Origin: a virus
Virus record (IMG/VR): IMGVR_UViG_3300025646_000383
Coordinates: 1-23,443 of that record
Direction: 5' to 3' (one strand)
Length of the DNA stretch: 23,443 bases
Shown: piece by piece, positions 1,837 through 23,430 of the stretch
Layout of the letters: each line of letters starts with the position of its first letter
How positions within the stretch are numbered: position 1 is the stretch's first letter
Made by a program: the position numbers and the translations under genes
The notes under the pieces: generated by a model
Databases searched by the model: none
What the model saw: the letters and a program-made list of their open reading frames with translations, nothing else
Told to the model about the DNA's origin: nothing

Positions 1837-1844
1837 TATTTATA
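1837..1844 (+). promoter_or_regulatory. Exact TATTTATA motif after the tRNA
   Basis: An exact copy of the recurrent intergenic octamer in the context CTAATATTTATAGATAC. It lies 27 bases after the tRNA and 32 bases before the ATG at 1877. Candidate phage promoter for the YkuK-like gene cluster; inferred from recurrence only. The rest of the interval 1811-1876 shows nothing else I can support. Confidence 0.5.
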
Positions 1845-1876
1845 GATACATTAGGCACTTTTATTATCTTCATGGC

Positions 1877-1996
1877 ATGAAGAACATGATGAAAACATAT
1901 TTGAGTTTGCTCCCAGGTGAAACCAACGAAATTAAATTTATGAGTATGTGGTTTAATTGGGTTATTATTAGTAAGTTATTTACATTATTTTTGTGA
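1877..1996 (+). CDS. Possible 39-residue hydrophobic mini-protein
   Basis: ATG at 1877 to TGA at 1994-1996, Met-rich at the N-terminus with a hydrophobic C-terminal half (WFNWVIISKLFTLFL), like a single membrane helix. The stop overlaps the GTG start of the YkuK-like gene (GTGA), an overlap style common here, and a TATTTATA motif lies upstream. No homology recognised. The open frame extends upstream through the tRNA to 1784, but that part cannot be coding. Could be a translational leader for the next gene or chance. Confidence 0.35.
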   Translation: MKNMMKTYLSLLPGETNEIKFMSMWFNWVIISKLFTLFL

Positions 1997-2442
1997 ATTT
2001 TAGAAAAGTAAATAACCAAAAGGTAAATCCTGTTAACTACACAGCTAAAATTATACAGGAAAATCCTTTTGTAGAAACCCACATTGGAACTGATTCACAA
2101 AGAGTAGGAGAAAATATTAATTATGTAACAGTAATTGCATATCGTTATCCTATGAGAGGTGTTCATTATATTTATTGTAAAGAAACATTTCCTCCTATTA
2201 AAGATGATTGGAGCAGGTTATGGTTGGAGACAGAACGCACTATGCAGGTTGCAGAACTTCTATCAGATAACCTTCCAGGAATTCGTTTCGAAATTGACAT
2301 GGATTATAATAACGATGAATATTTTATGAGTCATAAACTGGTTTCAGCAGCGAGAGGGTGGGCAAGATCTTATGGTTATAAGGTTAATATAAAGCCTAAT
2401 AAGCAAATCGCTACACGAGCCGCCGATTATCATTGCAGATGA
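1993..2442 (+). CDS. YkuK-like (DUF458) RNase H-fold protein
   Basis: The 149-residue product resembles the YkuK/DUF458 family of predicted RNase H-like proteins. It has an early IGTDSQR strand (residues 31-37) typical of the first acidic strand, a YVTVIAYRY strand, a long helix with ETERTMQVAELL, then FEIDMDYNNDEY near residue 100 and a C-terminal ATRAADYH segment with the last acidic residue. Asp33, Asp101/103 and Asp145 (approximate) are candidate metal ligands. Family function is predicted nuclease or nucleic-acid binding, not established. The start is GTG at 1993; no ATG or other usual start is available in frame before a stop at 1972. Length is close to the family norm, so the gene appears complete. 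Confidence 0.75.
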   Translation: MNFRKVNNQKVNPVNYTAKIIQENPFVETHIGTDSQRVGENINYVTVIAYRYPMRGVHYIYCKETFPPIKDDWSRLWLETERTMQVAELLSDNLPGIRFEIDMDYNNDEYFMSHKLVSAARGWARSYGYKVNIKPNKQIATRAADYHCR

Positions 2443-2504
2443 ATTACTGGATATATACAACAACTTACAACAACCTAGAGGTTAATTATATTTATGTTCG
2501 ATAA
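2439..2504 (+). CDS. Possible 21-residue microprotein bridging two genes
   Basis: ATG at 2439 overlaps the YkuK-like stop as ATGA, and its TAA at 2502-2504 overlaps the next ATG as TAATG. The peptide is aromatic-rich (six Tyr and one Trp in 21 residues). Both junctions have exactly the overlap forms used between established genes in this window, which is why I list it. It may be a coupling peptide that carries ribosomes to the next gene. No homology can be judged at this length. Confidence 0.35.
   Translation: MNYWIYTTTYNNLEVNYIYVR
2489..2496 (+). promoter_or_regulatory. TATTTATG motif before the 2504 gene
   Basis: A seven-of-eight match to the recurrent octamer, in the context TTATATTTATG, ending eight bases before the ATG at 2504. 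Candidate promoter or start-associated signal. Confidence 0.4.
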
Positions 2505-2944
2505 TGGACATTAACAAAATATTTGGGACATTTGGTTCCTCTTCTAGAGATGATAATGGGTTTGAACAGCCCTCATTTTTGTATGCTTATAGATCAGACG
2601 AAGAAAATCATCCTAGATATTATATCAAGATGTTTATTAAACTAGTACTTAATTATACTAACTATAATACCCAACTTATTAATTTTTTTGGTAAAGCTGA
2701 TCCTGAATTAGATATTAAAGAAATAACCCAAACTGGGGAAGCAATGTTATATGAAAGAGCCCTTCAACATTTAGAAAAAATTGATGTTCAAGACAAATAT
2801 CACATTAAAATTTTGTTTGAAGAGGCAAATGGTAAGCTTAAAGAGTCATTAAACAAATCATTAAAATATTTTGAAGGAGAAGAAGAGTATGAAAAGTGCG
2901 CAGTTCTTAAAAAATACCTTGATTTCTTAAATTTTTCATCATAA
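2504..2944 (+). CDS. Helical hypothetical protein with UVR-like C-terminal motif
   Basis: A 146-residue mostly helical acidic protein. The C-terminal part, about residues 106-142 (EANGKLKESLNKSLKYFEGEE and on to EKCAVLKKYLDFL), has the helix-turn-helix spacing of the UVR motif found in UvrB, UvrC and McsA, with paired short helices around a short acidic turn; this is a resemblance only. The last residues, YLDFLNF, also recall sliding-clamp-binding tails such as the end of T4 gp55. No catalytic residues or membrane segments. Start at 2504 is fixed by TAATG coupling and the lack of a useful earlier ATG in frame. Function unknown. Confidence 0.65.
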   Translation: MDINKIFGTFGSSSRDDNGFEQPSFLYAYRSDEENHPRYYIKMFIKLVLNYTNYNTQLINFFGKADPELDIKEITQTGEAMLYERALQHLEKIDVQDKYHIKILFEEANGKLKESLNKSLKYFEGEEEYEKCAVLKKYLDFLNFSS

Positions 2945-2967
2945 CTTCAGTTATAAATTATAAAACT

Positions 2968-3936: not shown

Positions 3937-4214
3937 TAGAAACAGTCGTCATCAGTATATTAGGGGTTTTGGTTGTGGTCTTAGGATTCACAACCTTCAA
4001 CCTCTTACGTAAAAATGAAAAACAAGAGGATATACTCGCAGGGTATATTACCTACTTGGATCAATTAAGTAGAATTATAGAAATCTCTGATGAAAAGCTC
4101 AAGAAAATAGATGAACGTGGAATCTTTAAAAGCGATGACGAAATAGGATTTATGTACGAACAGATTAAAGAACTTCAGAGAATTCTATCCAACTTTAGGG
4201 TAGATAAATTATGA
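3933..4214 (+). CDS. Membrane-anchored small helical protein (93 aa)
   Basis: An N-terminal hydrophobic segment (residues 2-24, VVISILGVLVVVLGFTTFNL) looks like one membrane helix, followed by Arg-Lys and a charged helical, probably cytoplasmic, domain. The C-terminal half has FKSDDEIGFMYEQIKELQRIL, a pattern I associate with small uncharacterised proteins of T4-like phages; this is from memory and unverified. ATGA overlaps link it to both neighbours, the HD gene and the sigma factor gene. Expression with a sigma factor invites a transcription role, but the membrane helix argues against a simple co-activator. Function unknown. Confidence 0.7.
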   Translation: MIETVVISILGVLVVVLGFTTFNLLRKNEKQEDILAGYITYLDQLSRIIEISDEKLKKIDERGIFKSDDEIGFMYEQIKELQRILSNFRVDKL

Positions 4215-4933
4215 GTGAAGAAATAAAAAGAAAAAGAAAAAAGAAGTCAAAAAATCAATATTTTACACAAGCAACAGAAGATGCTATAGTAAGATATAAT
4301 AATTGTACTGACCCCGAAGAGCGTAGTGAGATCTATCGTAAGGAGATTCATTATGCTTTTTTTAAACTAACCGAAAATATAATTCACACCTTCAAATTTT
4401 ATTATACAGAAGTTGAAGAAATTGAACATCTTCAACATGAGGTAATTACATTTTTGTTAGACAAAATCCATTTATATGATCAAACACGCGGAGCAAAAGC
4501 ATTCTCATACTTTGGGACAATTGCTAAACGATATTTGATTATACAAAATACTAAAAACTACAAAAAACGAGTAGATAAAGCCCCAGTCGAGGAATTATAT
4601 CACAACTTAGAGTATTCATATGATTTAGATTATAATCCTCTAGAAAAAGACCATCTATCAGACTTTATAGATGATTATGTATATTATTGTACTAAAAATA
4701 TTTACAAATTATTTCCAAAAGAAAAAGATGCTATGGTAGCAGATGCTATTTTAGAATTATTTAGAAAAAGAGAAGTAATGGATATTTTTAATAAAAAAGC
4801 TCTTTATTTGTGTATTAGAGAAATGGTAGATGTTAAAACCCCCCATATTACTAGGATAGCAGATCAATTAGGAGATATATTTAAACATCATTATTTATTT
4901 TACCAAGAACACGGGTATACAAAGTTTGATTAA
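4211..4933 (+). CDS. gp55-like: Phage late-type RNA polymerase sigma factor (T4 gp55-like)
   Basis: The 240-residue protein starts with a Lys/Arg-rich tail and then a sigma region 2-like domain (about residues 22-122). A helix with AIVRYNNCTDPEERSEIYRK is followed by EVITFLLDKIHLYDQTRGAK, and then by AFSYFGTIAKRYLIIQNTK, which matches the core-binding and promoter-melting helices of phage and bacterial sigma factors. The C-terminal half is divergent, with no clear region 4, as expected for gp55-type late sigma factors that read a -10-like element only. By family knowledge it would bind host RNA polymerase and direct late virion gene transcription. It sits immediately before the virion module, with a TATTTATT motif six bases after its stop. 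Confidence 0.8.
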   Translation: MSEEIKRKRKKKSKNQYFTQATEDAIVRYNNCTDPEERSEIYRKEIHYAFFKLTENIIHTFKFYYTEVEEIEHLQHEVITFLLDKIHLYDQTRGAKAFSYFGTIAKRYLIIQNTKNYKKRVDKAPVEELYHNLEYSYDLDYNPLEKDHLSDFIDDYVYYCTKNIYKLFPKEKDAMVADAILELFRKREVMDIFNKKALYLCIREMVDVKTPHITRIADQLGDIFKHHYLFYQEHGYTKFD

Positions 4934-4938
4934 TTCCA

Positions 4939-4946
4939 TATTTATT
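4939..4946 (+). promoter_or_regulatory. TATTTATT motif before the 4950 gene
   Basis: A seven-of-eight match in the context CCATATTTATTAACATG, ending three bases before ATG 4950. It occupies the only gap between the sigma factor gene and the virion module. If it is a -10 element, transcripts would start at or within the first codons, so the mRNA would be leaderless or nearly so. Confidence 0.45.
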
Positions 4947-4949
4947 AAC

Positions 4950-5294
4950 ATGGGACAATTGGATAAAAATATATTCGGTAAAAAGAAATTCTCTGATATT
5001 TTAGAGGAAATCTACAACAACCAGAAGAAAAAAGAGGAGCAAATTTCTACTCTTATCTCAGAATTAAAACCCCTTATTCAAGATATTGGGGACGCCACAC
5101 TAGTTGTTCCCCTTTTAAAGGAATACCTAGAAATTTCTGTTAAAAACGACGAGCAACTCATTAAAATGGCTACTATTGTACAACGTGCCGTCCAAAATGA
5201 GGGAAGTGATGATGGAAATTTTGGTATGACAGAAGAAGAAAAGGCACAACTATTAAATGAGGTGAAGAAATTCAACGAGGATAAGAAAAAGTAA
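4950..5294 (+). CDS. Helical hypothetical protein (114 aa)
   Basis: I take the ATG at 4950, not the in-frame TTG at 4926. The ATG follows the recurrent TATTTATT element, and the TTG would lie inside the sigma factor gene. The product is helical and charged: a Lys-rich N-terminal segment (FGKKKFSDILEEIYNNQKKK), a central hydrophobic-patterned helix pair (PLIQDIGDATLVVPLLKEYL, then NDEQLIKMATIVQRAV) and an acidic Lys-rich tail. There is no recognisable enzyme motif. It overlaps the gp5-like gene (TAATG at 5292), so it may be a tail assembly or virion factor. Function unknown. Confidence 0.7.
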   Translation: MGQLDKNIFGKKKFSDILEEIYNNQKKKEEQISTLISELKPLIQDIGDATLVVPLLKEYLEISVKNDEQLIKMATIVQRAVQNEGSDDGNFGMTEEEKAQLLNEVKKFNEDKKK

Positions 5295-6547: not shown

Positions 6548-8424
6548 TGGAGTTCCCTTTAGAAAGATATAATTTAAATAGTATATATAGTTTAAGTAAT
6601 GGGTATTATATTGATATTATCTCTAATCCCCAAACTAATAGTTATTCTATAATCTCTAAAACCCCTGAGGGAGCCAGGGTAATAGATCAGATTACAGCAG
6701 CTCAAATAGAAAACTATCCTAATATAATATTAAAAAATGGCACTTCCCCAATTCAGATACGTCAATCCTTAGATAGTGAGATATCTTTTCTCAGCCAATT
6801 TTTAAACGTAGGTAATCTTTCTATAATAGAGATTATTAAAAAACAAACCCCTCCTTTACCTAAAAAAAATTCCCAATTTAAAATAATAGGAAGGGTTGCA
6901 ACAATAGACGGAGATCCTATTACAAGATCTCAAATTAAACCTACTTTTATTAGTTTCCCCAAACCACCCCCTATTCCCTTCGATGCCCAATCCCCCTCAG
7001 TTGGATTAGAAGCTAATTTATTAGGAACTGCTATAGTTGTACCTCCTGTTGGTGTAGATGATGGAGGAAATTTTACTATAGAATATTTTGGTGAAGAGGA
7101 AATAGACTTTAAAACCTCATATATTGAAATCACAGCCAATAGTTTTTTTCCTAAGACTATAGGACCTAAACTAATTAAAACAGGCGAACAAACTCTAACA
7201 AAAAAATCCCTATCCACTAGCTTTAAGACTTCTTTAAGTGAAAAAGATTTAAAACTTTCCCAACAAGAAAATGGAAACTATAAAGCAGTCATAACCTTAG
7301 AAAATAGGGACACAGGCCAAATAGTTACAGCAGAAGGGATTAGTCTCAATAGAGAAACTGCTAAAAACATAGCTAGATCTAATGCTGAAAAAAAGTTTAC
7401 TGATCTAAATTCTGAAACTGAGGTAGAAGTAATAGATGTTTATGATGTAGGAAGAATTATTCTAGATTCCACAGAATTAAACTTAGAGAAAGAAGAAGCT
7501 AAAATTCTTCAACAAGTTCAAGAAATTGAAAATTTTGAAATTGAAATAGCTGGGAAGAGAGGGTTACCTTTTGAGGTTAAATTGACTAATATTTTTAATA
7601 AACAAAAGGAAAATTTAAAAAGAACGTTATTTCCTGCTATATTAGTAATTATAGCTAAATTTGGACCCAACATAGTTCATTCTATTTTAAGCGGGAAAAT
7701 TAATCCTTTAGAAGATAAAGTATGTCCTTCTAAAGAAGAACTTCAAAATGCTATAAATAAAAGAAATCAATTAGTAAGGCAATTAAATAATATATATAAA
7801 ATTGTTCGTACTATTGCTAAAGTGTTAAAAGTTACTAATGCCTTAGTTTTAGGTCTGAAGATAGGATTAACAATAGCACAAGTTCTTTCGGCAATTCCCA
7901 CAACTCCATTTACCCCCTTTGGCCTTAAACCATTTTACTCAGGTTTAACTGAAAAGGCTTTTAAGACAATAGATAAAAGATTAGAAATAGCAGGTATAGC
8001 AGTTACCATATTAACTATAGTTGCTGCTACTATAGGAGCTACTTTAGCAGCTATAATAAGGTTATTAGAGAGTTTAGACTTTATGATACAAGATTGTGCT
8101 CAACAAATCAATGAACAAGGAGAATTTACCCTCTCCTTTGTAGAAATTAATAATGAATTAAATAGTTTTGTAGATCCTACAACAGGACAAATAGATTCTA
8201 CTATTGATCCCTTAACCGGAGAACCCTTACCTTATAAAGGATTCACTTTTGAAATTAAAGTAGACACCAGCCAAGACTTTCAATATCCTAAAAGATATGC
8301 TATTGCCCGTAATATACAAGGAATACAAGTATTAAGAAGTGAGTCATCTTTTGCATCTAATCCTGATGTTCTAATTGAAGAATTAAAATTTGTAATTGAC
8401 AGAGATAATTTAAGAGCCGATTAA
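6547..8424 (+). CDS. Large baseplate-associated structural protein, mosaic of folds
   Basis: The 625-residue product lies between the gp5-like and gp25 genes and overlaps the former (TAATG), so a baseplate role is likely. Residues 110-220 look like a carboxypeptidase-regulatory or Ig-type beta-sandwich (FKIIGRVATIDGDPI, DDGGNFTIEYFG, SYIEITANSFFPKTIG). Residues 244-290 have a beta-beta-alpha pattern ending in NRETAKNIARSNAEKKFTDL, similar to the end of a double-stranded RNA-binding domain. Residues 361-510 are strongly hydrophobic and helical, with Ala/Ile/Leu runs at 430-450 and 480-505, resembling membrane or tape-like segments. The C-terminal 115 residues are beta-rich. I cannot equate it with a T4 protein; a hub or membrane-contacting tail protein is possible. 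Confidence 0.65.
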   Translation: MEFPLERYNLNSIYSLSNGYYIDIISNPQTNSYSIISKTPEGARVIDQITAAQIENYPNIILKNGTSPIQIRQSLDSEISFLSQFLNVGNLSIIEIIKKQTPPLPKKNSQFKIIGRVATIDGDPITRSQIKPTFISFPKPPPIPFDAQSPSVGLEANLLGTAIVVPPVGVDDGGNFTIEYFGEEEIDFKTSYIEITANSFFPKTIGPKLIKTGEQTLTKKSLSTSFKTSLSEKDLKLSQQENGNYKAVITLENRDTGQIVTAEGISLNRETAKNIARSNAEKKFTDLNSETEVEVIDVYDVGRIILDSTELNLEKEEAKILQQVQEIENFEIEIAGKRGLPFEVKLTNIFNKQKENLKRTLFPAILVIIAKFGPNIVHSILSGKINPLEDKVCPSKEELQNAINKRNQLVRQLNNIYKIVRTIAKVLKVTNALVLGLKIGLTIAQVLSAIPTTPFTPFGLKPFYSGLTEKAFKTIDKRLEIAGIAVTILTIVAATIGATLAAIIRLLESLDFMIQDCAQQINEQGEFTLSFVEINNELNSFVDPTTGQIDSTIDPLTGEPLPYKGFTFEIKVDTSQDFQYPKRYAIARNIQGIQVLRSESSFASNPDVLIEELKFVIDRDNLRAD

Positions 8425-8429
8425 TTAGA

Positions 8430-8437
8430 TATTTATA
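8430..8437 (+). promoter_or_regulatory. Exact TATTTATA motif before the 8442 gene
   Basis: In the context TTAGATATTTATAAACAATG, ending four bases before ATG 8442, in a gap of only 17 bases. No other signal fits in that gap. Candidate late promoter or start-associated element. Confidence 0.55.
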
Positions 8438-8441
8438 AACA

Positions 8442-8768
8442 ATGAAACAAGATTTATTAAAAAAATTAATTAAAGAAGCAGTTAAGGAAGCCATCCAGGA
8501 AGAATTAAAAGATATCCTTCTTGAAGCAGTTCGTTCTCCTAAACAAACAGTTGTAGAAAATATTCAACCACAAAAAGTAGTTGATGGTCCATCTATGAGT
8601 TCAAATGAAAGAAGAGCAGCCTATCAAAATATATTGGGTGATATGACTGCAACTTTTAACTCCCAACACATAGCTCAACCTTTTAACCCCCAAGGTGCCA
8701 TGCCTGGAGGAGATCTCCCAGCAGGAGAAGTAAATATGTCTCAAATAATGAATTTAATGAATAAATAA
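8442..8768 (+). CDS. Small protein with long amphipathic N-terminal helix (108 aa)
   Basis: The first 30 residues form an amphipathic charged helix (KKLIKEAVKEAIQEELKDIL). A polar linker and a Pro/Gly/Met-rich tail follow (PQGAMPGGDLPAGE, then MNLMNK). No enzyme motif is visible. It is the first gene after the TATTTATA element at 8430 and overlaps the gp25 gene (TAATG at 8766), so it probably leads the gp25-gp6 transcript. Such helix-plus-flexible-tail proteins are common as assembly factors or minor virion proteins, but I have no specific assignment. Confidence 0.65.
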   Translation: MKQDLLKKLIKEAVKEAIQEELKDILLEAVRSPKQTVVENIQPQKVVDGPSMSSNERRAAYQNILGDMTATFNSQHIAQPFNPQGAMPGGDLPAGEVNMSQIMNLMNK

Positions 8769-11018: not shown

Positions 11019-11021
11019 GAT

Positions 11022-12598: not shown

Positions 12599-12621
12599 TA
12601 GATAGGAAAATTAAAGGTTAT

Positions 12622-12629
12622 TATTTATA
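12622..12629 (+). promoter_or_regulatory. Exact TATTTATA motif before the giant wedge-like gene
   Basis: In the context TTATTATTTATATTATATAAACT, ending 11 bases before ATG 12641, within a 42-base noncoding gap. Likely promoter for the 12641 gene. Confidence 0.55.
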
Positions 12630-12640
12630 TTATATAAACT

Positions 12641-15600
12641 ATGACTAAAGTAACAATAATAGATTCAACTACATTTGAAACTCCTCAATATACCCCAGGA
12701 GATGAACAAGCTATAACTTCTATTGCTGTTAATTCTACTTTTACTACAGAAAATGGAAGGGTAGAAGCTTTAGTTTATGATTTAGATAATAATTTATTAA
12801 GTTACAACCCTAATGCTAAATACTCCTCAATAGAAAATGGAGTAGGAGGTAATTTATCTTTATCGGATGCTTTATTGGTTTATCCTGAGGATGAAGTAAA
12901 AGGTTTAGGATTAAATGTAGGGAAGTACAATGTTTTCTATAATTTTTTAAACAATGAATTAGGTTCTTCAGAAGCTAAACCTTTTTCAATTAAACAAATC
13001 TCTGCTAATAGAAAAGAAATCAGATTAACTACTAGTTTTACTTCAGAAGAAGAACTACAAGAAAAGGTTAACCAAATTTTCCCAGAGACAATAATATCTC
13101 CAGCTTACCCAGATTTTTATTTAAATTTTGGTCAAAACAGATTATCAATAGCTAATAATATATTATTTGATAATACTAATAACCAATATTCTGTTTTAAT
13201 TAAATTGTATGAACCTCTTCCTTCATTTGTTCAAGAAAGAGATGTTACTTGGGTAACTACCAACCAAAGAGATTCTATAGCATATCAAGTTGAATTCGAA
13301 CAAGAAATCCTTCCAGTTCCTAAAAAGAATGTACTAAAAGGACCTAATTTTTCCCTCCCATTAAATAACCAAGTTCACAGTTCAGTTAAACTTACTAGTT
13401 TAAGTGAGCTTCAAAATTTATCGGGTATTACAACTGCTTCTAGGAATCAGCTAGATAGTCTTTTAGAAGAAAAAGGAGTTGAAGTTAATGTAGATTATAC
13501 TAACTTTAATAACTTTATTCATTTTTCATCTGCTGAGGAAAGGATAAAAAATTTCTATTACAAAGTAGGATTAATACAAAGTGCTTCTAATGAATTAAAT
13601 AATGAACCTACAGGAAGTTCTACTTACATATCTGCTAGTAAAACTATTTTTGAAAATCAAATTTCTTCTATAATAGAAAATTTTGATGGATTTGAATATT
13701 GGTTATATTATTCTTCGGGGTCTTATGATGAAAATGCTTATCCTCAACCTTATCCTAAGACCACCAGCACTAAACCTTATACTTTAGCATCTACAGGAAG
13801 CGCAGCTGCTTTAAATTGGCTGTATACTGGGTCTCTTTCCGGATCTAATTATGATTATGAAAATCAAGATAATTTAACTCGTACTATCCCTGAATATCTA
13901 TTAGAAGACCCAGCTAACGAACCTTATAAAAAGTTCGTTGAAATGATAGGTCAACATTTTGATACATTATTTACTTATATTCAAGATATTACTAATAGAT
14001 ATAATGGTGATAATAGATTGGATTTTGGAATATCTAAGGATTTAGTTGGGGATGCTCTTAAGTCTATGGGTATAAACCTTTATACAGGTAATTTTACTTC
14101 TAATGATCTAGTAAATTCTTTAATAGGTACTAGGGTTCCCTCAACTCAGCCTGATGGGCAAACTAACGTAAGTACTTATATAACTGCTTCTGCAGATGTA
14201 GTACCTGTAGAAGATGTAAATAAGGAAATTTATAAAAGAATTTACCATAATTTACCCTTATTACTAAGACAAAAAGGTAGTATTGCTGGGTTAAGGACTC
14301 TTATTACATGTTTTGGTATTCCTGAAGAAATTTTTCCTATAAGGGAATTTGATATAAAGTATATAGCCACTACCCAAAGTCTTCCTGCCGTAGGAGAATC
14401 AGGAAGTATTAGTTTTGATACTAAAAGTATTGTTCTCCCCCCAGAAATGACCTCAACTGATTATATCCCCTCAACACTTTTATCCCCATCAGTTAGAGTA
14501 CAACAAAATTATATTAAAAGCGAAAGTTATGATAGAAGTTTGCATTATGTTGAGGCAGGATTTTCACCCCAAGGGTATATAGATGAAACAGATCACTCAA
14601 GTTTTGATCCTTTAGATACATCATTTCCTGATTTCAATGATTTTTATTTTGGATCTGCCTCATATTATAGCACCAAATTTATCACTGGTCCTCAAGCTTC
14701 AGGTCAAACTGTTACTTGGGATTTTTCAGCATATATAAGATATATAAAGTTTTTTGATAGTTCTTTATTCCAAATGATTAAAGACTTTATTCCTGTGAGA
14801 TCTAGTACTTCTACAGGAGTAATTATTAAACCTACTATAAAAGAAAGACAACGTCAAAGACCTGCTCAATTAGCATATGAAAATGTAATTTATAGTGGAT
14901 CAGGAATTACCTTAGATTATAATTTTGGTTCTGGGTCTTATTATCAAAGAGCTGTAGGAGATTATGATAAAAAAAGGGATTTTGCTCGTATAGGAGGTGC
15001 TGAGTATGATTATGCTTATAGACATCCCGGAACTACTGGGGGGGCTTTTAATAATTTAAATAAAGTAACATTCAGTGGGGAAAACGATTGGGAGTTACAT
15101 GATACTGCTACTCCTCTTATACAAGTAACCCAATCTTGGAACGAAACCACCTTTACTACTTTGGGGTATGCCCAGCAAACCCAATCGGCTCAAATTAATA
15201 ATAGTGGGTATATAATTTCTCACACTACTCAAGATGAATTTTATAACGGAATTTTTTATCAAAGTGGTATTGGTAATTTTGATAATTATTTAATTAGAGA
15301 ATTACCGGTTTCTTTATCATTAAATGCTGGAACTGGGAAGATTAGAACTGATAATAATAGATTTAACCCTTATAAAAAGCCTTCAAGCAATACTTATGCT
15401 GGGTTAACCAAGGCTAATTTCTCAGGGGTTTTGGGTTTCTTGTCGCTTACAGCAGAAATAGGATACAGTATAGCAGGGGATGATGCTTATATTTTAATAA
15501 AAATAGCAGGAGATATAACTCAAGAATTATTAGAAGGTAACGGTTCTACTTTAACCTTCTCAGGCAGTAGCGGTAATTATTTATTTAATGTAGGTACTCC

Positions 15601-16141: not shown

Positions 16142-16149
16142 TATTTATA
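16142..16149 (+). promoter_or_regulatory. Exact TATTTATA motif before the 16164 gene
   Basis: In the context GTAATATTTATACATAAAG, beginning right after the upstream stop and ending 14 bases before ATG 16164. It fills much of a 22-base gap. Confidence 0.55.
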
Positions 16150-16163
16150 CATAAAGTTACTAA

Positions 16164-18200
16164 ATGGCAACATCTCAAGGAACCCAACCAGATCCCCTAT
16201 TACCTAGTGGTTTTTCCATCAGTCCTCTAGCAAACCAGGCTAACCAACAGGATGAGATTACTATTCTTCAGGCTGAGGATTCAACTATTCCTCCTGTTAA
16301 TGGCATATTAGGGGGGTTACCTGTAGCTGAGAGAAATTCTGAGTATTTTGTGGTGGTAAAAGAAGTTGGGGATACTTCTCCTGAGATAATAGGTCAATCA
16401 CAATTTAAAGTAGTTTATCTATGTGATTCTCAACTAAATGTATCTAAACCCTCAGCAGGAGGAGGACCCGCATTACTTAATATTAATCAAAATTTTGAAA
16501 GACAAAAAAATGCTGTTGTAAGAGTAAATCAAGGTACAGTATTAAACCAACAATTAGCAGGAACTCATAAAATAACAGCTGTTGGATCTTTAGAACCTAT
16601 AGGGGGTACTCAAATAGGAACTAGTCCTTTAGCTTATGTAACTACAATGAGTTTTGTCCCCACAGATCAATTAGGAGTAGCCCCAGGATTACAAGTAGAA
16701 ACCTATTATTACTGGTTAAATAAAACAGTAGGTTTTCAAAATACACAATCTATGTATCTTAAATCTGGAGTTATAAGTAGTAATCTCCTTCCTGCAGGGG
16801 AAAGTGGTGGGTCATGGTCAAAGCCCAATGTAATTCAAGCCTCAGGATCAGGCACAAGTAATGGATTTAGAACTTATTATGATGAACAACAAAATGCAAC
16901 TACAGGTTCGGCTGTAACTGGGTCTAATGTCTTAGGATTATGGGCTGAAAATTATCAAGATGGGATTACTATATTAACGGGGTCTGTTCAAGGAAATACC
17001 CGAATTAGGGTGAGTTGTGGAGTAGGAATTAATATTGCCACTAGTAGTATAGCAGACTTTTTTAGACCTGCTTTTGGGGCTAATACTGGGAAATCTGGAG
17101 GGGGTCAAGTAAGTATTTCTACTGCTGTAAAGTTAAAAGTTTATAGAGATGTAGGAGGAACTGGGGCTAATATTCAATTAATAGATCAAACTCAAAAATC
17201 TATTAATCTTGATCACCCATTTTTAGTTGCTAATGGAAGTTATAATCCGTCTCGTGCTAATGCTTTAGCCAATTATGACGATCCTGCCTCAATTTATTCT
17301 TCTTTTAATTGGTCTCCTGATAGAGCAGCATTTCCTTCATTAATAACAGATTATTTTGATGTTACTGCAGGAGATAAAATTTATGCTAGACTAGAACTTC
17401 CTGAGGAAACTACCTCTTCGGTAGCTTTTGAAAATGAAGGATATTTTACTGAAAGTTTATTCAGGCACAGGAATAGAGCAGCTCTAAGATCATATCAATA
17501 TTTTGGAGGTCACCTAATTATGAATCAAGAAACTCCTCCCGGAGCTAATTTTATAAATGGGATAACCGGAATTACTGCTAGTTATTTTACTACTCAAAGT
17601 GATGGGATAAGTGTATCCCAATCTATTTGGAATTACACAGGAAGTTATTGGATTGGGTATAATAATTTTAGTAGTAGTGAAGAAGGAATAGGTTCTTATA
17701 TAACTGCTTCTACTCCTTTAACTAATTTTTACGGAGGAGAATATGTACAAGTAAACCCTGGGACTGAGGATTATAATACGTTAAACGCTAATGGTGAGGT
17801 AACAGCTTCCCTAGGAAGTGGAGCTACTAAAACTACTTGGTTAAGTTTTGGATTTAATCCTATTAAACTCCCTTTTGTTCCTGTAGCAGGAGATTTTATA
17901 AGGTTTGAATATACTAAAAGTAAAGTTTACTTAATAACTCAAGTTCAATCTGTTAGTAACGTTTTAAAACTTAAACTTGATGGTCAAATCCCAGAATCCA
18001 CAGTACTAGATAATTTTGTTATTTATAGAATTGTAGAAGATGGGCAATACATTATATTAGACGTAGAAAAAAATACAGAGGTGGGAGTAGATCAAGCCTT
18101 TTCAGGACTTATTACTCCTGAGTTCCCTTCTGTTGAATTAGAAGAAAGATCAGAAACTTTATTTTTTGATTTAAAACAAGCAAATATTATAGAAGACTAA
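16164..18200 (+). CDS. Large beta-rich tail or baseplate protein (678 aa), unassigned
   Basis: The 678-residue protein is Ser/Thr/Gly-rich with many short strands and few Cys or Lys residues, typical of phage fibre or baseplate proteins. Residues 52-95 (NSEYFVVVKEVGDTSPEIIG, SQFKVVYLCDSQLNV) look like a compact attachment domain. A central region (about 255-430) reads like a jelly-roll or carbohydrate-binding sandwich. The C-terminal 100 residues (FRFEYTKSKVYLITQVQSV-like strands, then DGQYIILDVEK) form another beta module. Its position after the wedge genes suggests a T4 gp8-gp10-like peripheral protein or fibre network part; sequence alone does not decide. Confidence 0.6.
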   Translation: MATSQGTQPDPLLPSGFSISPLANQANQQDEITILQAEDSTIPPVNGILGGLPVAERNSEYFVVVKEVGDTSPEIIGQSQFKVVYLCDSQLNVSKPSAGGGPALLNINQNFERQKNAVVRVNQGTVLNQQLAGTHKITAVGSLEPIGGTQIGTSPLAYVTTMSFVPTDQLGVAPGLQVETYYYWLNKTVGFQNTQSMYLKSGVISSNLLPAGESGGSWSKPNVIQASGSGTSNGFRTYYDEQQNATTGSAVTGSNVLGLWAENYQDGITILTGSVQGNTRIRVSCGVGINIATSSIADFFRPAFGANTGKSGGGQVSISTAVKLKVYRDVGGTGANIQLIDQTQKSINLDHPFLVANGSYNPSRANALANYDDPASIYSSFNWSPDRAAFPSLITDYFDVTAGDKIYARLELPEETTSSVAFENEGYFTESLFRHRNRAALRSYQYFGGHLIMNQETPPGANFINGITGITASYFTTQSDGISVSQSIWNYTGSYWIGYNNFSSSEEGIGSYITASTPLTNFYGGEYVQVNPGTEDYNTLNANGEVTASLGSGATKTTWLSFGFNPIKLPFVPVAGDFIRFEYTKSKVYLITQVQSVSNVLKLKLDGQIPESTVLDNFVIYRIVEDGQYIILDVEKNTEVGVDQAFSGLITPEFPSVELEERSETLFFDLKQANIIED

Positions 18201-18209
18201 AAAATACGA

Positions 18210-18217
18210 TATTTATT
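18210..18217 (+). promoter_or_regulatory. TATTTATT motif before the 18238 gene
   Basis: In the context ACGATATTTATTACATATAAT, ending 20 bases before ATG 18238, inside a 37-base noncoding gap. Seven of eight bases match. Candidate promoter for the 18238-21259 gene group. Confidence 0.5.
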
Positions 18218-18237
18218 ACATATAATTAATACACACA

Positions 18238-18900
18238 ATGGGATATTTAAATAACGCAGTAATAACGGTAGATGCTATATTAACAGATAGAGGTAGAGAA
18301 TTGTTAGCTCGTGGAGACGGTTCTTTCAAAATCACCCAGTTTGCTCTATCTGATGATGAGATTGATTATTCTCTATATGACCCAACAGATCCTTCGGGTT
18401 CTGCTTTTTTTGGTAAAAATATAGAAAATATGCCTTTATTAGAAGCTATGCCTAAAGCAACACAAAATTTAAGATATAAATTAACTACTCTTCCAAGAGG
18501 TACATCCCAAATGCCTGTGTTGGATATTGGATATACTTCAATTACCCTAAAACAAGGAGCTACCTTGTCTATCACACCTCAAACTCTTAACTATTTAGGT
18601 AATAACCAAGTATTTGAAGCAGGAGGTTATACAGTAACTATTGCAGACGTGAGAACCATGGCTTCATTTGAGGGTATTGGTGTTAATACGCAAGCTGCTC
18701 AAAACTTAAATGCTACTCAAACACTAGGTGCAGCTACACAGAAAACTGTTATAGGTACTACAATTAATATGAAAGCAACTACAGTAAATACCTTATTTGG
18801 TTCATCTGCTACTTCTATTAAAACATCATTATTAGTAGTTGGAAGGGATAGTGGTGCTAGAATTACAATTCCTCTTACTGTTACTAAAAACACTCAATAA
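18238..18900 (+). CDS. Phage structural protein with conserved ILTDRGRELLARG N-terminus
   Basis: The 220-residue protein opens with NNAVITVDAILTDRGRELLA and then FKITQFALSDDEIDYSLYD. I recognise this N-terminal signature as recurring in structural proteins of large myoviruses, without a defined function. The rest is a beta-rich domain (TLSITPQTLNYLG, YTVTIADVRT) and a Thr/Ala/Asn-rich C-terminus ending in VGRDSGARITIPLTV, possibly an Ig-like fold. It heads the block containing the three paralogues, all in the same direction with small gaps, so they probably form one virion substructure. Confidence 0.65.
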   Translation: MGYLNNAVITVDAILTDRGRELLARGDGSFKITQFALSDDEIDYSLYDPTDPSGSAFFGKNIENMPLLEAMPKATQNLRYKLTTLPRGTSQMPVLDIGYTSITLKQGATLSITPQTLNYLGNNQVFEAGGYTVTIADVRTMASFEGIGVNTQAAQNLNATQTLGAATQKTVIGTTINMKATTVNTLFGSSATSIKTSLLVVGRDSGARITIPLTVTKNTQ

Positions 18901-18910
18901 TTAACTTAGC

Positions 18911-19717
18911 ATGTCATTTAAAAGATTAGAACCAGAAGATTTTCTTATAAGCACGGATGCAATTGTAGCCCCAGCTTTTTCTAATGGTAGTATTTCATCT
19001 ACAGGAACTGCTAAAGCTAACACAGGAGCAAGTGCCAATTATTATACAGCAGTTAATGGAACTGATTCAAGATTAGAATTAGCAGTTGCTTATGGAGATA
19101 AAGCTGCTACTGGAACTGATATTAATCAACAAGTAGTATATAGGCAATTTGCTAATGTTATTACAGGAGATAGTGGGGGAACTTTACCTATAGGAGATAA
19201 GTTTGTAGCAGTTGTTTTAGAGAGATCAAGATTTAAACAATCAATTTTTCCCGCTTCATTTCAAATAGCTTATTCAATTGGGGGTTCTCCAACAGGAACA
19301 GTCCAAACTGGATCAGATGATGTAAGTTATGGCAATGCTGGGAGAGTTTACTCCAATTCAGCAGGAGATATTTATTTATACCCAGATATTGGAACAGCTA
19401 TAATGAGTGGAAGTAGTCTTCCTGCTTCTATTGCTTCTAATGCTGTAATAGCAGAAAGTGAAGAAATAATTACTTCAAATTTTGTTTTTGTTAGAGCTAG
19501 AAATGCTGAGTTTAATTACTCTCAAAACCCAACATTCATAGATTCAGGATCGGGAGGTGTAAGATATACCGACTTTATTACAGCTCCTCAAACATTTATT
19601 ACTACTGTTGGTTTATATAATGATAATGGTGATTTGTTAGCAGTTGCTAAATTATCTAAGCCCCTTAAAAAAGATTTTACCAAAGAAGCTCTTATTAGAG
19701 TTAAATTAGATTTCTAA
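18911..19717 (+). CDS. Tail/baseplate paralogue A of three tandem copies
   Basis: A 268-residue protein starting FKRLEPEDFLISTDAIVAPA. Shared elements with paralogue C (20567) are VVYRQFANVITGDSGG with LPIGDKF, RSRFKQSIFPASFQ, a YGNAGRVYSN..GDIYLYPDIG strand pair, FVRARNAEFNYSQNPTFID and a C-terminal TTVGLYNDNGDLLAVAKLSK followed by PLKKDF. The C-terminal EFNY-NP and GLYN-AVAKL motifs are also in paralogue B. The fold is beta-rich with no enzymatic motif. The repeated domain probably mediates assembly into the baseplate, with the variable middle giving each copy its own partner. No named family recognised; virion location is inferred from context. Confidence 0.65.
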   Translation: MSFKRLEPEDFLISTDAIVAPAFSNGSISSTGTAKANTGASANYYTAVNGTDSRLELAVAYGDKAATGTDINQQVVYRQFANVITGDSGGTLPIGDKFVAVVLERSRFKQSIFPASFQIAYSIGGSPTGTVQTGSDDVSYGNAGRVYSNSAGDIYLYPDIGTAIMSGSSLPASIASNAVIAESEEIITSNFVFVRARNAEFNYSQNPTFIDSGSGGVRYTDFITAPQTFITTVGLYNDNGDLLAVAKLSKPLKKDFTKEALIRVKLDF

Positions 19718-19721
19718 ATGA

Positions 19722-20567
19722 ATGGGCGTATTCAAAAAATTAACAGGTAATGATATTAGGGTTACCCCTATACAAGTAAAGTATGATAAAACTTATACTG
19801 GGGGACAAAAAACTGGGGATTCTGTTGATTTTAATTCTGGGAATGTAACTAGAAGTGATTTAACTGGGAGTGGTATAGATTCTCTAGCTTTATTATACTC
19901 GTCTATAAGACAATTGTTTTATGGATCTTTTATTTCACAAAACTTTTTAGCTAGTGGTAGTATAATTCATACTCCTGTAAATGGGGCTGTAGCCCAACAA
20001 GCAGAAGGGGTTTTTAGTAGATTTGATCCCTCTTTTCAAGGAAGTTTAGCTTACCAAAGATATTTTCCTATCGGCAATGATAAGGAAATTAAAGTAACCA
20101 CCCTTTCAACTAGAGATTTTGGAGAATCTATAGTACCTGGTACTGTATCTTATAGTACTTTTACTGATGATGCTTCTGGGAATTTAGTTGATGGTAGTGG
20201 TAATATTAGGGGGAATATTTTTTATGATCAAGGAATAATAGTAACTACAGGAACTAATGGAAACGGAACTTCCCCTACAACTGATACTTCTATTACTTAT
20301 CAAGGATCATATACAATTTATAGTATTCAATATAAATGTACAGCTTCCCCCAATGAATTTAATTATACTCTAAATCCAACTTTATTATCAAGTTCAAACA
20401 CAGAGTATGATCCTGCTGTAATCAATAGCCCAGATTTCATGCCTTATGTAACTACAATAGGACTTTATAATGAAAATCAAGAATTAATGATGGTAGCTAA
20501 ATTAGCACAACCTGTTCAATTGAATCCTTATACAGATACTAATTTTATAGTTAGATTAGATAGATAA
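19722..20567 (+). CDS. Tail/baseplate paralogue B of three tandem copies (diverged)
   Basis: A 281-residue protein. I chose ATG 19722 because ATG 19718, next to the upstream stop, closes after ten codons. It shares FKKL-GND at the N-terminus and the C-terminal NEFNYTLNPTLLSS, YVTTIGLYNENQELMMVAKL and PVQLNPY arrangement with paralogues A and C. It lacks their RQFANVI--D block and instead has SIRQLFYGSFISQNFLASGS and a Gly/Asn/Asp-rich middle (DDASGNLVDGSGNIRG). It is thus the most diverged of the three. It overlaps paralogue C by one base (TAATG at 20565). Probable structural protein. Confidence 0.65.
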   Translation: MGVFKKLTGNDIRVTPIQVKYDKTYTGGQKTGDSVDFNSGNVTRSDLTGSGIDSLALLYSSIRQLFYGSFISQNFLASGSIIHTPVNGAVAQQAEGVFSRFDPSFQGSLAYQRYFPIGNDKEIKVTTLSTRDFGESIVPGTVSYSTFTDDASGNLVDGSGNIRGNIFYDQGIIVTTGTNGNGTSPTTDTSITYQGSYTIYSIQYKCTASPNEFNYTLNPTLLSSSNTEYDPAVINSPDFMPYVTTIGLYNENQELMMVAKLAQPVQLNPYTDTNFIVRLDR

Positions 20568-21259
20568 TGCAATACAAAAAATTAGATACTGAGGATTTCA
20601 TTGTAGGCTATAATCCCATTATAGAACCAGCAGGTGCAAATGATGGTGGTTTGTTAGCTGCAGGAGAATATGATATAACAACAGGAAGTTTATCAGGACC
20701 TTCAAGTGGATCCCAAAGAGTTTATAGACAATTTGCTAATATTATACAAGGAGATAGTACTTCTAACCTTCCCGTAGGATCTTCCTTTTATGCTTTAACA
20801 ATTAGAAGAGCAAATTTTAAAGAATCTATTCACCCCTCTTCATTTTCTCTTAATGGTGTTAGATTATTAACAGGATCAGCAGATATAAACTATTGTAATG
20901 CCGGAAGAGAATATGTTAGCACTGATAGTGATTTTTATGTATACCCGGATATAGGAGTAGTATTAAAAAGTACCTCGGGATTTACTAATGTTTATGCTGC
21001 TAGTGAAGAAATTAATACTATAGGATATGCTTTTGTAAGAGCAGGAGCTAGTGAATTTAATTATTCAACTAATCCTTCATTTTTAGATGAAAATGATTAT
21101 ATAAGATTTACAGAATGGGTTTATAATCCCACTACATACGTTACAACTATAGGTTTTTATAATAATAATGGTGATTTATTAGCAGTTGCTAAATTACCTA
21201 AACCTACTAAAAAAGATTTCAACACAGATCTCTTATTTAAAGTAGAATTAAAATTTTAA
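20567..21259 (+). CDS. Tail/baseplate paralogue C of three tandem copies
   Basis: A 230-residue protein, the shortest of the three, starting YKKLDTEDFIVGYNPIIEPA. It is closest to paralogue A: VYRQFANIIQGDSTSNLPVG, RRANFKESIHPSSFSL, INYCNAGREYVSTDSDFYVY, then FVRAGASEFNYSTNPSFLDE and YVTTIGFYNNNGDLLAVAKL. The difference in length lies mainly in a shorter N-terminal insert between the first strand and the RQFAN block. It is the last gene of the virion block; five bases separate it from the GIY-YIG gene. Likely virion structural. Confidence 0.65.
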   Translation: MQYKKLDTEDFIVGYNPIIEPAGANDGGLLAAGEYDITTGSLSGPSSGSQRVYRQFANIIQGDSTSNLPVGSSFYALTIRRANFKESIHPSSFSLNGVRLLTGSADINYCNAGREYVSTDSDFYVYPDIGVVLKSTSGFTNVYAASEEINTIGYAFVRAGASEFNYSTNPSFLDENDYIRFTEWVYNPTTYVTTIGFYNNNGDLLAVAKLPKPTKKDFNTDLLFKVELKF

Positions 21260-21264
21260 AAAAT

Positions 21265-21714
21265 ATGAATTGGTTATATAATGGAAAAGAAATCACAGAC
21301 ATATCACAATTCCCCCCTAATACATTTGGGTTTGTCTATGAAGTGATTACCCCCGAAGGTAAAAAATATGTGGGTAAAAAAGTATTATACCACAATCAAA
21401 AACGAAAGAAAACCCGTGCAGAACTAGCCGAGCAACAAGGTGCTGGGAGAAGAGGTTTGTATAAAATCGTTAGTAAGGAAAGTGATTGGAAGACGTATAT
21501 AGGTTCAAATACAAATTTGAAACGTCAAATAACTGAAGGAGAAGTTACGAAGGAATCTTTGAAAAGACAAATTCTTGAAATCGCTCTCAATAAAAAACAC
21601 CTTACGTACCTGGAGACCAAATACCTATTTCAGCTAGAGGTATTAGAACACCCAGATAAGTATTTTAATGATAATATACTTGGAAAGTTTTTTACCTCAG
21701 ACTTTGATTTTTAA
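21265..21714 (+). CDS. SegE-type GIY-YIG nuclease domain protein
   Basis: The 149-residue protein shows a degenerate GIY-YIG core: FGFVYEV (residues 21-27, Phe-Val-Tyr at 23-25) and KKYVGKK (residues 33-39, Tyr-Val-Gly at 35-37), separated by the usual short hairpin. A basic helix follows, then SDWKTYIGSN (73-82), and LTYLETKYLF with the candidate catalytic Glu117, then YFNDNILGKFF with Asn135/137. Conserved positions and length fit the putative SegE GIY-YIG group of T-even phages. Members are free-standing homing or DNA-cutting enzymes. Here it sits exactly between the virion and replication blocks, with no interrupted gene in sight. CGT codons appear, unlike in the virion genes. Confidence 0.75.
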   Translation: MNWLYNGKEITDISQFPPNTFGFVYEVITPEGKKYVGKKVLYHNQKRKKTRAELAEQQGAGRRGLYKIVSKESDWKTYIGSNTNLKRQITEGEVTKESLKRQILEIALNKKHLTYLETKYLFQLEVLEHPDKYFNDNILGKFFTSDFDF

Positions 21715-21737
21715 ATTACCATTCGTATATTAAGTTT

Positions 21738-22661
21738 ATGGTAAATCATTTACTAGTAACACTAGTGGATTCTGTCTTAGGTAAAGGCAAACAAACATCC
21801 AGGGGTAATTATGCTTACCACTGTCCTTTTTGTAAACACCACAAACCAAAAATGGAGGTAAATTTTACAGAAAATAAAAAGGGACATAATCCTTGGCATT
21901 GTTGGGTGTGTAACACCCGAGGAAAAACTATTCCTAACTTATTTAAAAAAGTAGAAGCATACGATAAAATTGAAGATGCTAAACGATTAATCCCCCAGGG
22001 TTCATTTGTTGAGGAGGTTGTAGTACATAACGATTTAGTCCTCCCTAAAGAATTTACTCCATTCATAGACAAACCCTCCAGCTTAATGGCTAAACATGCT
22101 CTAGCTTATTTAAAGCGTAGAGGTGTTACTACAGAAGATATGATTAAATATCATATGGGTTATTGTGAGGATGGAGAATATAAAAACATGATTGTTATTC
22201 CTTCATACGATGCTAATGGTAATCTTAATTATTTTACAGCTCGTAGCTTTGAAAAACAACCATTTAGAAAGTACAAAAATCCATCAGTATCTCGCGATAT
22301 TATACCATTTGAAATGTTTATAAATTGGAATAGCCCGTTGATATTGTGCGAAGGACCATTTGATGCCATAGCCATCAAACGTAATGCTATCCCGCTTTTA
22401 GGAAAAAATATACAAACAAACCTAATGAAGAAAATTGTTTCTTCTAAGGTTGAAAAAATATACATAGCACTTGATAGTGATGCTATTAAGTCTGCTCTTA
22501 ATTTTTGTGAAAGGTTTATGAATGAGGGTAAAGAGGTTCATTTATTAGAAATGAACGATAAAGACCCTGGAGAATTAGGATTCGAACGTTTCACCGAACT
22601 CATACAAAAGTCTACTCCCTTAACATTATCTGGACTTTTGGCTCGAAAATTAGCTCTATGA
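21738..22661 (+). CDS. DnaG-type DNA primase
   Basis: The 307-residue protein has an N-terminal zinc ribbon: Cys29-x2-Cys32 (YHCPFCKHHKPKMEV) and Cys55-x2-Cys58 with His54 (WHCWVCNTRGKTI), typical of DnaG/gp61-like primases. A helical linker follows, then the RNA polymerase-like core (AYLKRRGVTTEDMIKYHMGY, MIVIPSYDANGNLNYFTAR) and a TOPRIM segment. The TOPRIM glutamate is near residue 204 in LILCEGPFDAIAIKR, and the DxD-like IYIALDSDAIKSA near 244 supplies acidic metal ligands. Length is close to T4 gp61 (342). Role: RNA primer synthesis for lagging-strand replication with the phage helicase, not in this window. It overlaps the next gene by ATGA. Confidence 0.9.
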   Translation: MVNHLLVTLVDSVLGKGKQTSRGNYAYHCPFCKHHKPKMEVNFTENKKGHNPWHCWVCNTRGKTIPNLFKKVEAYDKIEDAKRLIPQGSFVEEVVVHNDLVLPKEFTPFIDKPSSLMAKHALAYLKRRGVTTEDMIKYHMGYCEDGEYKNMIVIPSYDANGNLNYFTARSFEKQPFRKYKNPSVSRDIIPFEMFINWNSPLILCEGPFDAIAIKRNAIPLLGKNIQTNLMKKIVSSKVEKIYIALDSDAIKSALNFCERFMNEGKEVHLLEMNDKDPGELGFERFTELIQKSTPLTLSGLLARKLAL

Positions 22662-23422
22662 CACAAATTAAAAAAGCATACGGTCGCATTTTGGAAATAT
22701 CTGACGACCACAAACAAATCACCCTCCCAGATGGAAGATATTACCGTAGAAATGGTGAATATTATCCTTCAGTAACTTACGTACTTAGTCATTACCCAAA
22801 AGGTAAATTTTTTGAAGACTGGCTCAAAAAAGTAGGATATTCAGCAGATTATATTGTTAAAAAAGCATCTGAAGAAGGTACACAAGTACACGAAATGATT
22901 GAAGCTTACCTTAAAGGTGAAGAATTAAAATTTTTAGAACATGGGCGTCCTATGTACGATCCTAATATATGGGAAATGTTCTTACGTTTTGTTGATTTTT
23001 GGGAAGAATACAATCCAACACTAATTGAAGCAGAAGTCCACTTATTCTCAGATGAATTAAAAATAGCAGGTACTTGTGATATGGTTTGTGAAATTGATGG
23101 TGAATTATGGATTGTAGATTTTAAAACATCTAATTATCTTCAAACAACATACGATTTACAAACAGCAATTTATGCTAAATGTTTTGAGGAATGTTATGGT
23201 AAAAAAGTAAATCGTACTGGGGTATTGTGGTTAAAATCTTCTAAAAGAAAGGCTGCAAAAGGTAAAATGCAAGGTAAAGGATGGGAAATGTATGAATCAT
23301 CTCGCACCCAAGAAGAAAACCTAGACATTTATAGAGCAGTTCGTAAATTATTTGATTTAGAAAACCCAAACCACAAACCAGCATTTACTGAATTCCGTAC
23401 CACAGCTAAAAGAGATTTGTAA
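22658..23422 (+). CDS. RecB/Cas4-type PD-(D/E)XK nuclease
   Basis: The 254-residue protein has the ordered motifs of RecB-like PD-(D/E)XK exonucleases. A GTQVHEMIEAYLKGEEL helix carries the motif-I His78; acidic residues follow in IEAEVHLF (Glu124/126). GTCDMV contains Asp141, WIVDFKTS contains Asp154 and Lys156, and the YDLQTAIYAKCF helix contains Gln168 and Tyr172 of the QxxxY motif. There is no iron-sulfur cysteine cluster of the Cas4 type. Enzymes of this group resect or degrade DNA ends in recombination and repair. It is coupled to the primase by an ATGA overlap and ends just before a TATTTATA motif. Complete within the window. Confidence 0.85.
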   Translation: MTQIKKAYGRILEISDDHKQITLPDGRYYRRNGEYYPSVTYVLSHYPKGKFFEDWLKKVGYSADYIVKKASEEGTQVHEMIEAYLKGEELKFLEHGRPMYDPNIWEMFLRFVDFWEEYNPTLIEAEVHLFSDELKIAGTCDMVCEIDGELWIVDFKTSNYLQTTYDLQTAIYAKCFEECYGKKVNRTGVLWLKSSKRKAAKGKMQGKGWEMYESSRTQEENLDIYRAVRKLFDLENPNHKPAFTEFRTTAKRDL

Positions 23423-23430
23423 TATTTATA
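23423..23430 (+). promoter_or_regulatory. Exact TATTTATA motif after the RecB-like gene
   Basis: In the context GTAATATTTATAACAAATAC, beginning immediately after the stop at 23420-23422. It is the only noncoding signal at the window end and probably precedes a gene beyond it. Confidence 0.5.

Follow-up and report, generated by a model that had tools for sequence, protein, structure and literature searches.

The 8-bp element TATTTATA is very probably the late promoter of a T4-related phage group that includes Flavobacterium phage immuto, where it would be read by a gp55-like sigma factor, with RNA starting at a purine 4–5 nt further on. It was examined in a window of 23,443 nucleotides (the whole stretch of viral DNA analysed, IMG/VR record IMGVR_UViG_3300025646_000383), for which a DNA-level search of phage records gave no near relative. 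The earlier note on this DNA had proposed a phage late promoter. This reading is strongly supported, at the level of sequence, by an enrichment oriented with the genes, a purine at the expected start, the lack of a −35 element, the positions before immuto structural genes and after terminators, and the recurrence of the word in a relative with Shine-Dalgarno (SD) sites. Judged from these comparisons, the element is a new version of the T4 late promoter.

Occurrence of the Element in the Window

The following copies were located, all on the + strand.

1560..1567, +, weak element TATTTAAA, 4 nt to the ATG at 1572 (small ORF 1572–1727)
1837..1844, +, exact TATTTATA, 3′ of tRNA-Leu and 32 nt upstream of a possible 39-codon ORF at 1877
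2489..2496, +, element TATTTATG, 7 nt to the ATG at 2504
4939..4946, +, element TATTTATT, 3 nt to the ATG at 4950
8430..8437, +, exact TATTTATA, 4 nt to the ATG at 8442
12622..12629, +, exact TATTTATA, 11 nt to the ATG at 12641; purine at end+5
16142..16149, +, exact TATTTATA, 14 nt to the ATG at 16164; purines at end+4 and end+5
18210..18217, +, element TATTTATT, 20 nt to the ATG at 18238; purine at end+5
23423..23430, +, exact TATTTATA, abutting the stop of 22658–23422; the next gene lies outside the window

The exact copies (1837, 8430, 12622, 16142 and 23423) and those with one mismatch (1560, 2489, 4939 and 18210) lie where the earlier note placed them. Its statement that nearly every gap is occupied holds for nine gaps of at least 15 nt, which carry a copy with zero or one mismatch, and fails for the gaps 566–669, 2945–2967 and 21715–21737, which carry none. 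Likewise, a spacing of mostly 3–20 nt applies to every copy with a start codon in the window except that at 1837. The count of only two exact copies in coding sequence needed correction, as the + strand contains three (10811, 18020 and 19373); one further coding copy is on the − strand at 7752.

Several of these positions are also occupied in relatives. The copy at 1837, which follows the tRNA-Leu gene (1737–1811), is present in the relatives L003, L005 and L006. In the family homologous to that at 2489, the exact word is located 4 or 6 nt from the start in many relatives. Among 53 homologues of the 4939 element, 33 were exact and 18 had one mismatch, with the nearest copy mostly at spacing 3. 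Of 47 homologues of the 8430 element, 41 carried the exact word at spacing 4 and a further 4 had a one-mismatch form at the same spacing. The spacing varied from 4 to 20 nt in the family of the 18210 element. The weak element at 1560 has A at both end+4 and end+5, and a GC-rich inverted repeat was recognized by eye upstream of it.

Exact copies were concentrated in the window gaps as had been claimed, with 4 found versus 0.10 expected from the coding rate and versus 0.41 in dinucleotide-shuffled gaps (maximum 3 in 200 shuffles). One-mismatch forms numbered 106 across the whole window versus 113 expected, showing no global enrichment; the enrichment of TATTTATA is positional, not global. This flat count of one-mismatch forms is what would be expected if the copies had merely arisen by chance in AT-rich gaps of an AT-rich genome, but shuffled gaps never reached the observed counts in the window, in immuto or in 80 related contigs, and the finding repeats in an independent contig set. 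Chance was excluded by these dinucleotide shuffles, and its probability is considered negligible.

Enrichment and Orientation in Related Phages

Among the enriched 8-mers in gaps of 148 related contigs, TATTTATA ranked first or second. In 80 of these contigs, 137 exact copies were counted in gaps versus 12.5 in dinucleotide-shuffled gaps, and the T4 late word TATAAATA stayed near the shuffle level (14 versus 11.7). In the second, independent set of 68 contigs, the gaps contained 142 copies of TATTTATA versus 3.2 by the coding rate, and 28 copies of TATAAATA versus 3.3. The element was also the top enriched gap 8-mer of the annotated phage immuto (24 versus 2.56 in shuffled gaps), and the same method applied to T4 as a positive control gave TATAAATA as the top word. 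Microcystis phage Mel-JY01 carries TATTTATA as well. The element was not found in the 40 kb examined of LR756508, a 484-kb relative whose gp55-like protein is 45% identical, and searches of the open-access literature for a phage late promoter of this sequence yielded no relevant paper.

TATTTATA and TATAAATA are reverse complements of each other and at the same time differ by only two bases, a relation missed in the earlier reading, as was what a spacing of 3–4 nt implies for leaderless mRNA. The exact complementarity to the T4 consensus would fit a T4-type late promoter that lies on the other strand and fires antisense RNA. Against this, the word is oriented with the genes, which are nearly all on one strand (142 forward versus 28 reverse copies in gaps of the 68-contig set), and its flanks, A/C on the 5′ side and a purine 4–5 nt on the 3′ side, follow the orientation of the downstream gene. 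The opposite-strand promoter was dropped on this strand bias and these flanks, and we regard it as highly improbable.

Flanking Bases and Spacing to the Start Codon

The extended element reads A/C-TATTTATA-N3-purine(s). The base on its 5′ side was A/C in all 24 immuto sites, and a purine occupied end+5 in 23/23 immuto sites. At end+4, purines were found in 29/32 and 65/70 clade sites with a spacing of at least 9 and in 14/16 Mel-JY01 sites. No conserved column that could represent a −35 or −33 element was detected from −50 to −2 in the 24 immuto sites.

In ortholog families of the window's clade, spacing 3 was kept in 24/24 and spacing 4 in 45/47; the contigs counted are related and the gene families few, and the counts thus do not represent independent events. 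The spacing between element and start is 10–20 nt in immuto and approximately 33 nt in Mel-JY01. SD sites were found in Mel-JY01 and in none of the window, its clade and immuto. Such a fixed distance of 3–4 nt to ATG in several families, together with the missing SD sites, might indicate that the element is a translation-initiation signal that replaces the SD sequence in SD-less hosts, but it occurred before none of 56 adjoining genes without gaps (several families), and the longer spacings in immuto and in SD-using Mel-JY01 disagree with this role. In particular, the coexistence of SD sites with an element approximately 33 nt from the starts in Mel-JY01 indicates that the element is not a translation signal. 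This explanation was dropped on the spacings of both phages and is considered very unlikely.

For the late promoter, a distance of 3 or 4 nt places the likely start nucleotide on the A of ATG or a neighbouring base, so that late mRNAs with this spacing are probably leaderless, as far as the start and the mode of translation can be predicted from the sequence. Late transcription of the group may well be largely leaderless, with a promoter that abuts the start codon and the A of AUG as the first RNA nucleotide, an extension that we favour with less confidence than the promoter itself. We propose that this closeness is permitted by hosts that make no use of SD sites, while the SD-using relative keeps the same promoter approximately 33 nt away. 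Against this reading, leaderless mRNAs account for only 5.5% in F. psychrophilum (PMC9723704).

Gene Classes Preceded by the Element in Immuto

In immuto, the element lies upstream of terminase, portal, sheath, tube, tape measure and baseplate genes, and several copies are located directly 3′ of terminator-like T runs. An exact copy is absent before some structural genes, including the major capsid gene. The element was found in 16/29 gaps of the structural region versus 3/29 gaps of the early-type region, where a host-like element TATATTTAGGTA is located instead; the ratio of late to host-like motif was 16:2 in the former and 3:19 in the latter (Fisher p = 2.8e-6). The early-type sites also have GTTG approximately 20–30 nt upstream and TTTAGGTA, neither of which was detected in the late sites.

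Bacteroidota sigma-A promoters consist of TAnnTTTG at −7 and TTTG or TTG at −33. The late sites do not have this form, and a host-like form is present at the early-type sites. The element could nevertheless be a promoter for the host sigma-A, as a degenerate TAnnTTTG box, or for another phage factor rather than the gp55-like protein, since ATATTTA is common to TATTTATA and TATATTTAGGTA and both have an equal distance to the predicted start. We consider this unlikely, though less so than any other alternative, as GTTG and TTTAGGTA are confined to the early-type sites, the two site classes segregate by region, and the same word is kept in Mel-JY01, which was recorded from a cyanobacterium.

The gp55-like Protein

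The candidate for recognizing the late promoter is encoded directly before the 4939 element.

4211..4933, +, putative gp55-like late sigma factor of 240 aa; sigma region 2 at approximately residues 19–118, helical C-terminal domain of putative role at approximately 147–240

This protein gave no usable Pfam or PDB-sequence match and no significant PHROG match, and its immuto counterpart showed a weak colinear match (E 0.5) to the PHROG late sigma family. Comparison with the T4 gp55 family by hhalign gave a probability of 84.5 over T4 residues 5–112. An AlphaFold2 model (pLDDT 73) matched mostly sigma factors in the PDB, with sigma region 2 structures superposed at 2.5–4 Å over 85–100 residues (Z 6.9–7.8). 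By alignment and model, the protein is a remote relative of T4 gp55 with a predicted sigma region 2 fold. Its assignment in the earlier note as the recognizing factor is hence supported indirectly, and we infer the pairing with TATTTATA from this resemblance.

Among the pocket residues of T4 gp55, the alignments showed Y97 to be kept, H95 replaced by F, T99 by G/Q/S, and N13 by T or Q. The idea of a simple residue code, with the H95-to-F change accounting for T in place of A at −9, was abandoned, since F is also present at this position in cyanophage gp55s. The T4 tail SLDFLYEAND, the C-terminal clamp-binding epitope, has no evident counterpart, and a helical domain of approximately 95 aa is located in its place. 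When this domain was searched alone, the best matches included sigma-E region 4 (Z 5.4, 69 residues, 3.5 Å), tied with unrelated folds. T4 late promoters are activated by the gp45 clamp together with gp33. The gp45 clamp models PF02916 and PF09116 matched nothing in immuto or Mel-JY01, which is not claimable as a loss of the clamp because PF02916 also misses cyanophage S-RIM44; the PCNA model PF00705 had no match in six records.

Proposed Mechanism and Significance

The element most likely acts in the manner of the T4 late promoter, in that host RNA polymerase carrying the phage gp55-like sigma would recognize a single 8-bp element that replaces the −10/−7 box, without a −33/−35 element. RNA synthesis would then begin at the purine 4–5 nt past the element, at a distance equal to that from the Flavobacterium sigma-A box. 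At spacing 3 or 4, which is frequent in the window's clade, the first nucleotide would be the A of ATG or the base that precedes it, leading to a leaderless mRNA.

This would extend T4-type late transcription, with a changed promoter word, to an abundant and mostly uncultured virus group that has a cultured member infecting Flavobacterium. Each with its own sigma factor, TATAAATA and TATTTATA would constitute a natural pair for testing how gp55 reads DNA, and operon starts should become predictable in hundreds of uncultured viral contigs. The spacings further suggest that host translation rules set how close a promoter may be to its gene.

Comparison with Known Systems

Similar to the T4 late promoter, the present one appears as a single AT-only 8-bp element in the −10 place with no −35 element and an AT-rich downstream region, located before late structural genes in phages that encode a gp55-related sigma nearby. 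It departs from the consensus TATAAATA in its centre, which is TT here and AA in T4 (−10 and −9 in T4 numbering); the base at −9 is flipped into a pocket by T4 gp55 (PMC7892883). The T4 start lies 6 nt past the element (−13 to −6), whereas the purine predicts 4–5 nt here, and the spacing to ATG is 14–28 nt in T4 and often 3–4 nt here. In F. psychrophilum, the sigma-A box occupies −12 to −5 (PMC9723704), which places the start 5 nt past the box. The distance from box to predicted RNA start is thus similar to that of the Bacteroidota sigma-A promoter, although the late element lacks both the TTTG end and the −33 element. A changed late word in T4-like phages has a published precedent in CTAAATA of Aeromonas phage Aeh1, which differs from TATTTATA and for which the portion of that report considered here describes no leaderless geometry (PMC1524935).

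Enrichment of the Element in Gene Gaps

Several independent sequence tests indicate that TATTTATA, an 8-mer recurring in the gene gaps of the window, is a real element that most likely serves this virus group as its late promoter, as the earlier note had proposed. All likely genes of the window, a whole IMG/VR virus record of 23,443 bases, lie on the + strand, and they include those for baseplate wedge proteins, a primase, and an exonuclease. Every element coordinate in that note was reproduced on recheck, though its tally of copies inside genes was short by two: 18020 (+ strand) and 7752 (− strand). The octamer was enriched in gaps over shuffled noncoding sequence in both the window and its relatives. 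The window gaps held 4 exact copies versus 0.41 in dinucleotide shuffles of the same gaps, a count that omits position 23423, where no gene follows inside the window. One-mismatch forms did not exceed the expected frequency across the whole window, so that the signal consists of exact or near-exact copies in gaps. The following features are located near the elements:

1737–1811, tRNA-Leu in the baseplate-proximal region, with an exact TATTTATA 25 nt downstream
1877–1996, possible 39-codon ORF after the tRNA-Leu and this exact copy

GC-rich, terminator-like inverted repeats were also seen at 1526–1549 and 593–616 (ggggggagttgccagctcccccc; gggttggctttgcagtcagccc), upstream of places where the element is weak or absent. 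Separately, the tandem genes 18911, 19722, and 20567 (18911–21259) share one protein cluster and probably encode paralogous tail or fibre proteins.

Replication in Related Viruses

Viral contigs were scanned twice, yielding more than 140 related loci, with at least 600 candidates in the second scan. Two phages are the window's nearest annotated relatives. In Flavobacterium phage immuto (NC_055915), the gp55-like protein is 47% and the baseplate wedge protein 49% identical; the values for Microcystis phage Mel-JY01 are 37% and 41%, respectively. No Shine-Dalgarno sites were found in the window, its clade of related contigs, or immuto; they are present in T4 and Mel-JY01. This absence, together with the relationship to immuto, suggests a Bacteroidota host for the window's virus.

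One simple gene caller was used for all sequences, and TATTTATA was scored in gene orientation. The gaps of immuto contained 24 copies versus 2.56 after shuffling, and those of the first 80 contigs contained 137 versus 12.5 (maximum of 24 among 60 shuffles). For the T4 late-promoter word TATAAATA, the corresponding counts were 6 versus 3.9 and 14 versus 11.7. A further 68 contigs, more distantly related, gave 142 copies of TATTTATA versus 3.2 expected from the coding rate, and 28 of TATAAATA versus 3.3. When T4 was processed identically as a positive control, TATAAATA ranked first (9 versus 0.36), and both ATATTTAT and TATTTATA were within the top three words of Mel-JY01. TATTTATA was missing from the 40 kb read of LR756508, a 484-kb phage record whose gp55-like protein is approximately 45% identical, and the word may hence have changed again in that lineage.

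In immuto, TATTTATA precedes the terminase, portal, sheath, tube, hub, tape-measure, and baseplate genes. Exact copies are missing before some structural genes, including the major capsid gene; these genes may be read from upstream promoters. A second element, GTTG followed by TATATTTAGGTA 20–30 nt on, resembles a host sigma-A promoter and precedes small genes at 60–77 kb. The late-type and host-like elements segregate by region (Fisher p = 2.8e-6), and gene position and promoter type make 60–77 kb the likely early region. Approximately 16 near-identical host-like promoters (GTTG...TATATTTAGGTATCAATAATTAAAA) were observed there before small genes of unknown function.

Predicted RNA Start and Leaderless mRNAs

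In all 24 immuto sites, the word is preceded by A or C and a purine stands five bases past its end; no column upstream to −50 was informative. Among sites 9 nt or more from the ATG, where the start codon cannot explain a purine, the fourth base past the element was a purine in 29/32 and 65/70 clade sites and in 14/16 of Mel-JY01, and the fifth in 23/23 of immuto. This purine, 4–5 nt past the element, looks like the initiating nucleotide, though it could possibly be a conserved discriminator base instead. With the placement of promoter features taken from the cited papers, the Flavobacterium psychrophilum sigma-A box at −12 to −5 (PMC9723704) puts the RNA start on the fifth base past the box, and the T4 late element at −13 to −6 (PMC1524935) puts it on the sixth.

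Across orthologous families of the clade, the distance from the word to the ATG is exactly 3 nt (24 of 24) or 4 nt (45 of 47), and no element was present in 50–56 members at adjoining genes without gaps. In the gene 4950 family (n = 53), 33 copies are exact and 18 have one mismatch, the latter at 3 nt; its spacings of 9, 12, and 14 nt are due in part to doubling of the element, a second copy lying closer to the gene at 3 nt. Spacing varies from 4 to 20 nt in the gene 18238 family, as in some others. It is mostly 10–22 nt in immuto, and most commonly 33 nt in Mel-JY01, with Shine-Dalgarno-like bases in between. If RNA starts on the fourth or fifth base past the element, a spacing of 3–4 nt makes its first nucleotide the A of ATG or the preceding base. 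Leaderless late mRNAs in the window's clade are the most interesting prediction, and one that we consider moderately probable. A start on the sixth base, as in T4, would leave the short-spacing genes untranslatable from the adjacent promoter. Alternatively, the gene directly after the element may be translated from longer transcripts that read through it, and the promoter may act on genes farther downstream.

A gp55-Like Sigma Factor

The earlier note assigned recognition of the promoter to the 240-residue product of 4211–4933, which had no significant match in Pfam, PHROG, or PDB sequences. Its family profile was colinear with that of T4 and cyanophage gp55 (probability 84.5, E 7e-6, T4 residues 5–112), and the immuto member matched the PHROG late sigma family colinearly but weakly (E 0.5). 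An AlphaFold2 model (pLDDT 73) matched mainly sigma factors, with 85–100 residues of region 2 at 2.5–4 Å. Since Foldseek E-values alone were not significant and Z of 7–8 can be non-specific with helical proteins, the gp55-like assignment depends on profile, fold, and context jointly. A C-terminal helical domain of approximately 95 residues (4640–4933) has no counterpart in T4 gp55; its best structural matches, all weak and not distinctive, include sigma-E region 4. The predicted pairing of TATTTATA with this protein is likely, though supported indirectly.

Comparison with Known Late Promoters

Within the open-access literature, no paper was found that describes TATTTATA as a late promoter. The word shares all but two bases with TATAAATA, those at −10 and −9 in T4 numbering. 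T4 gp55 flips bases −12, −9, and −8 through Y97, N13 with H95, and T99, respectively (PMC7892883). At the equivalent positions here, Y97 is kept, H95 is replaced by F, T99 by G, Q, or S, and N13 by T or Q. Cyanophages likewise carry F at the H95 position, and we therefore claim no residue code. Divergence of the word is already known among T4-like phages, as with CTAAATA in Aeromonas phage Aeh1 (PMC1524935).
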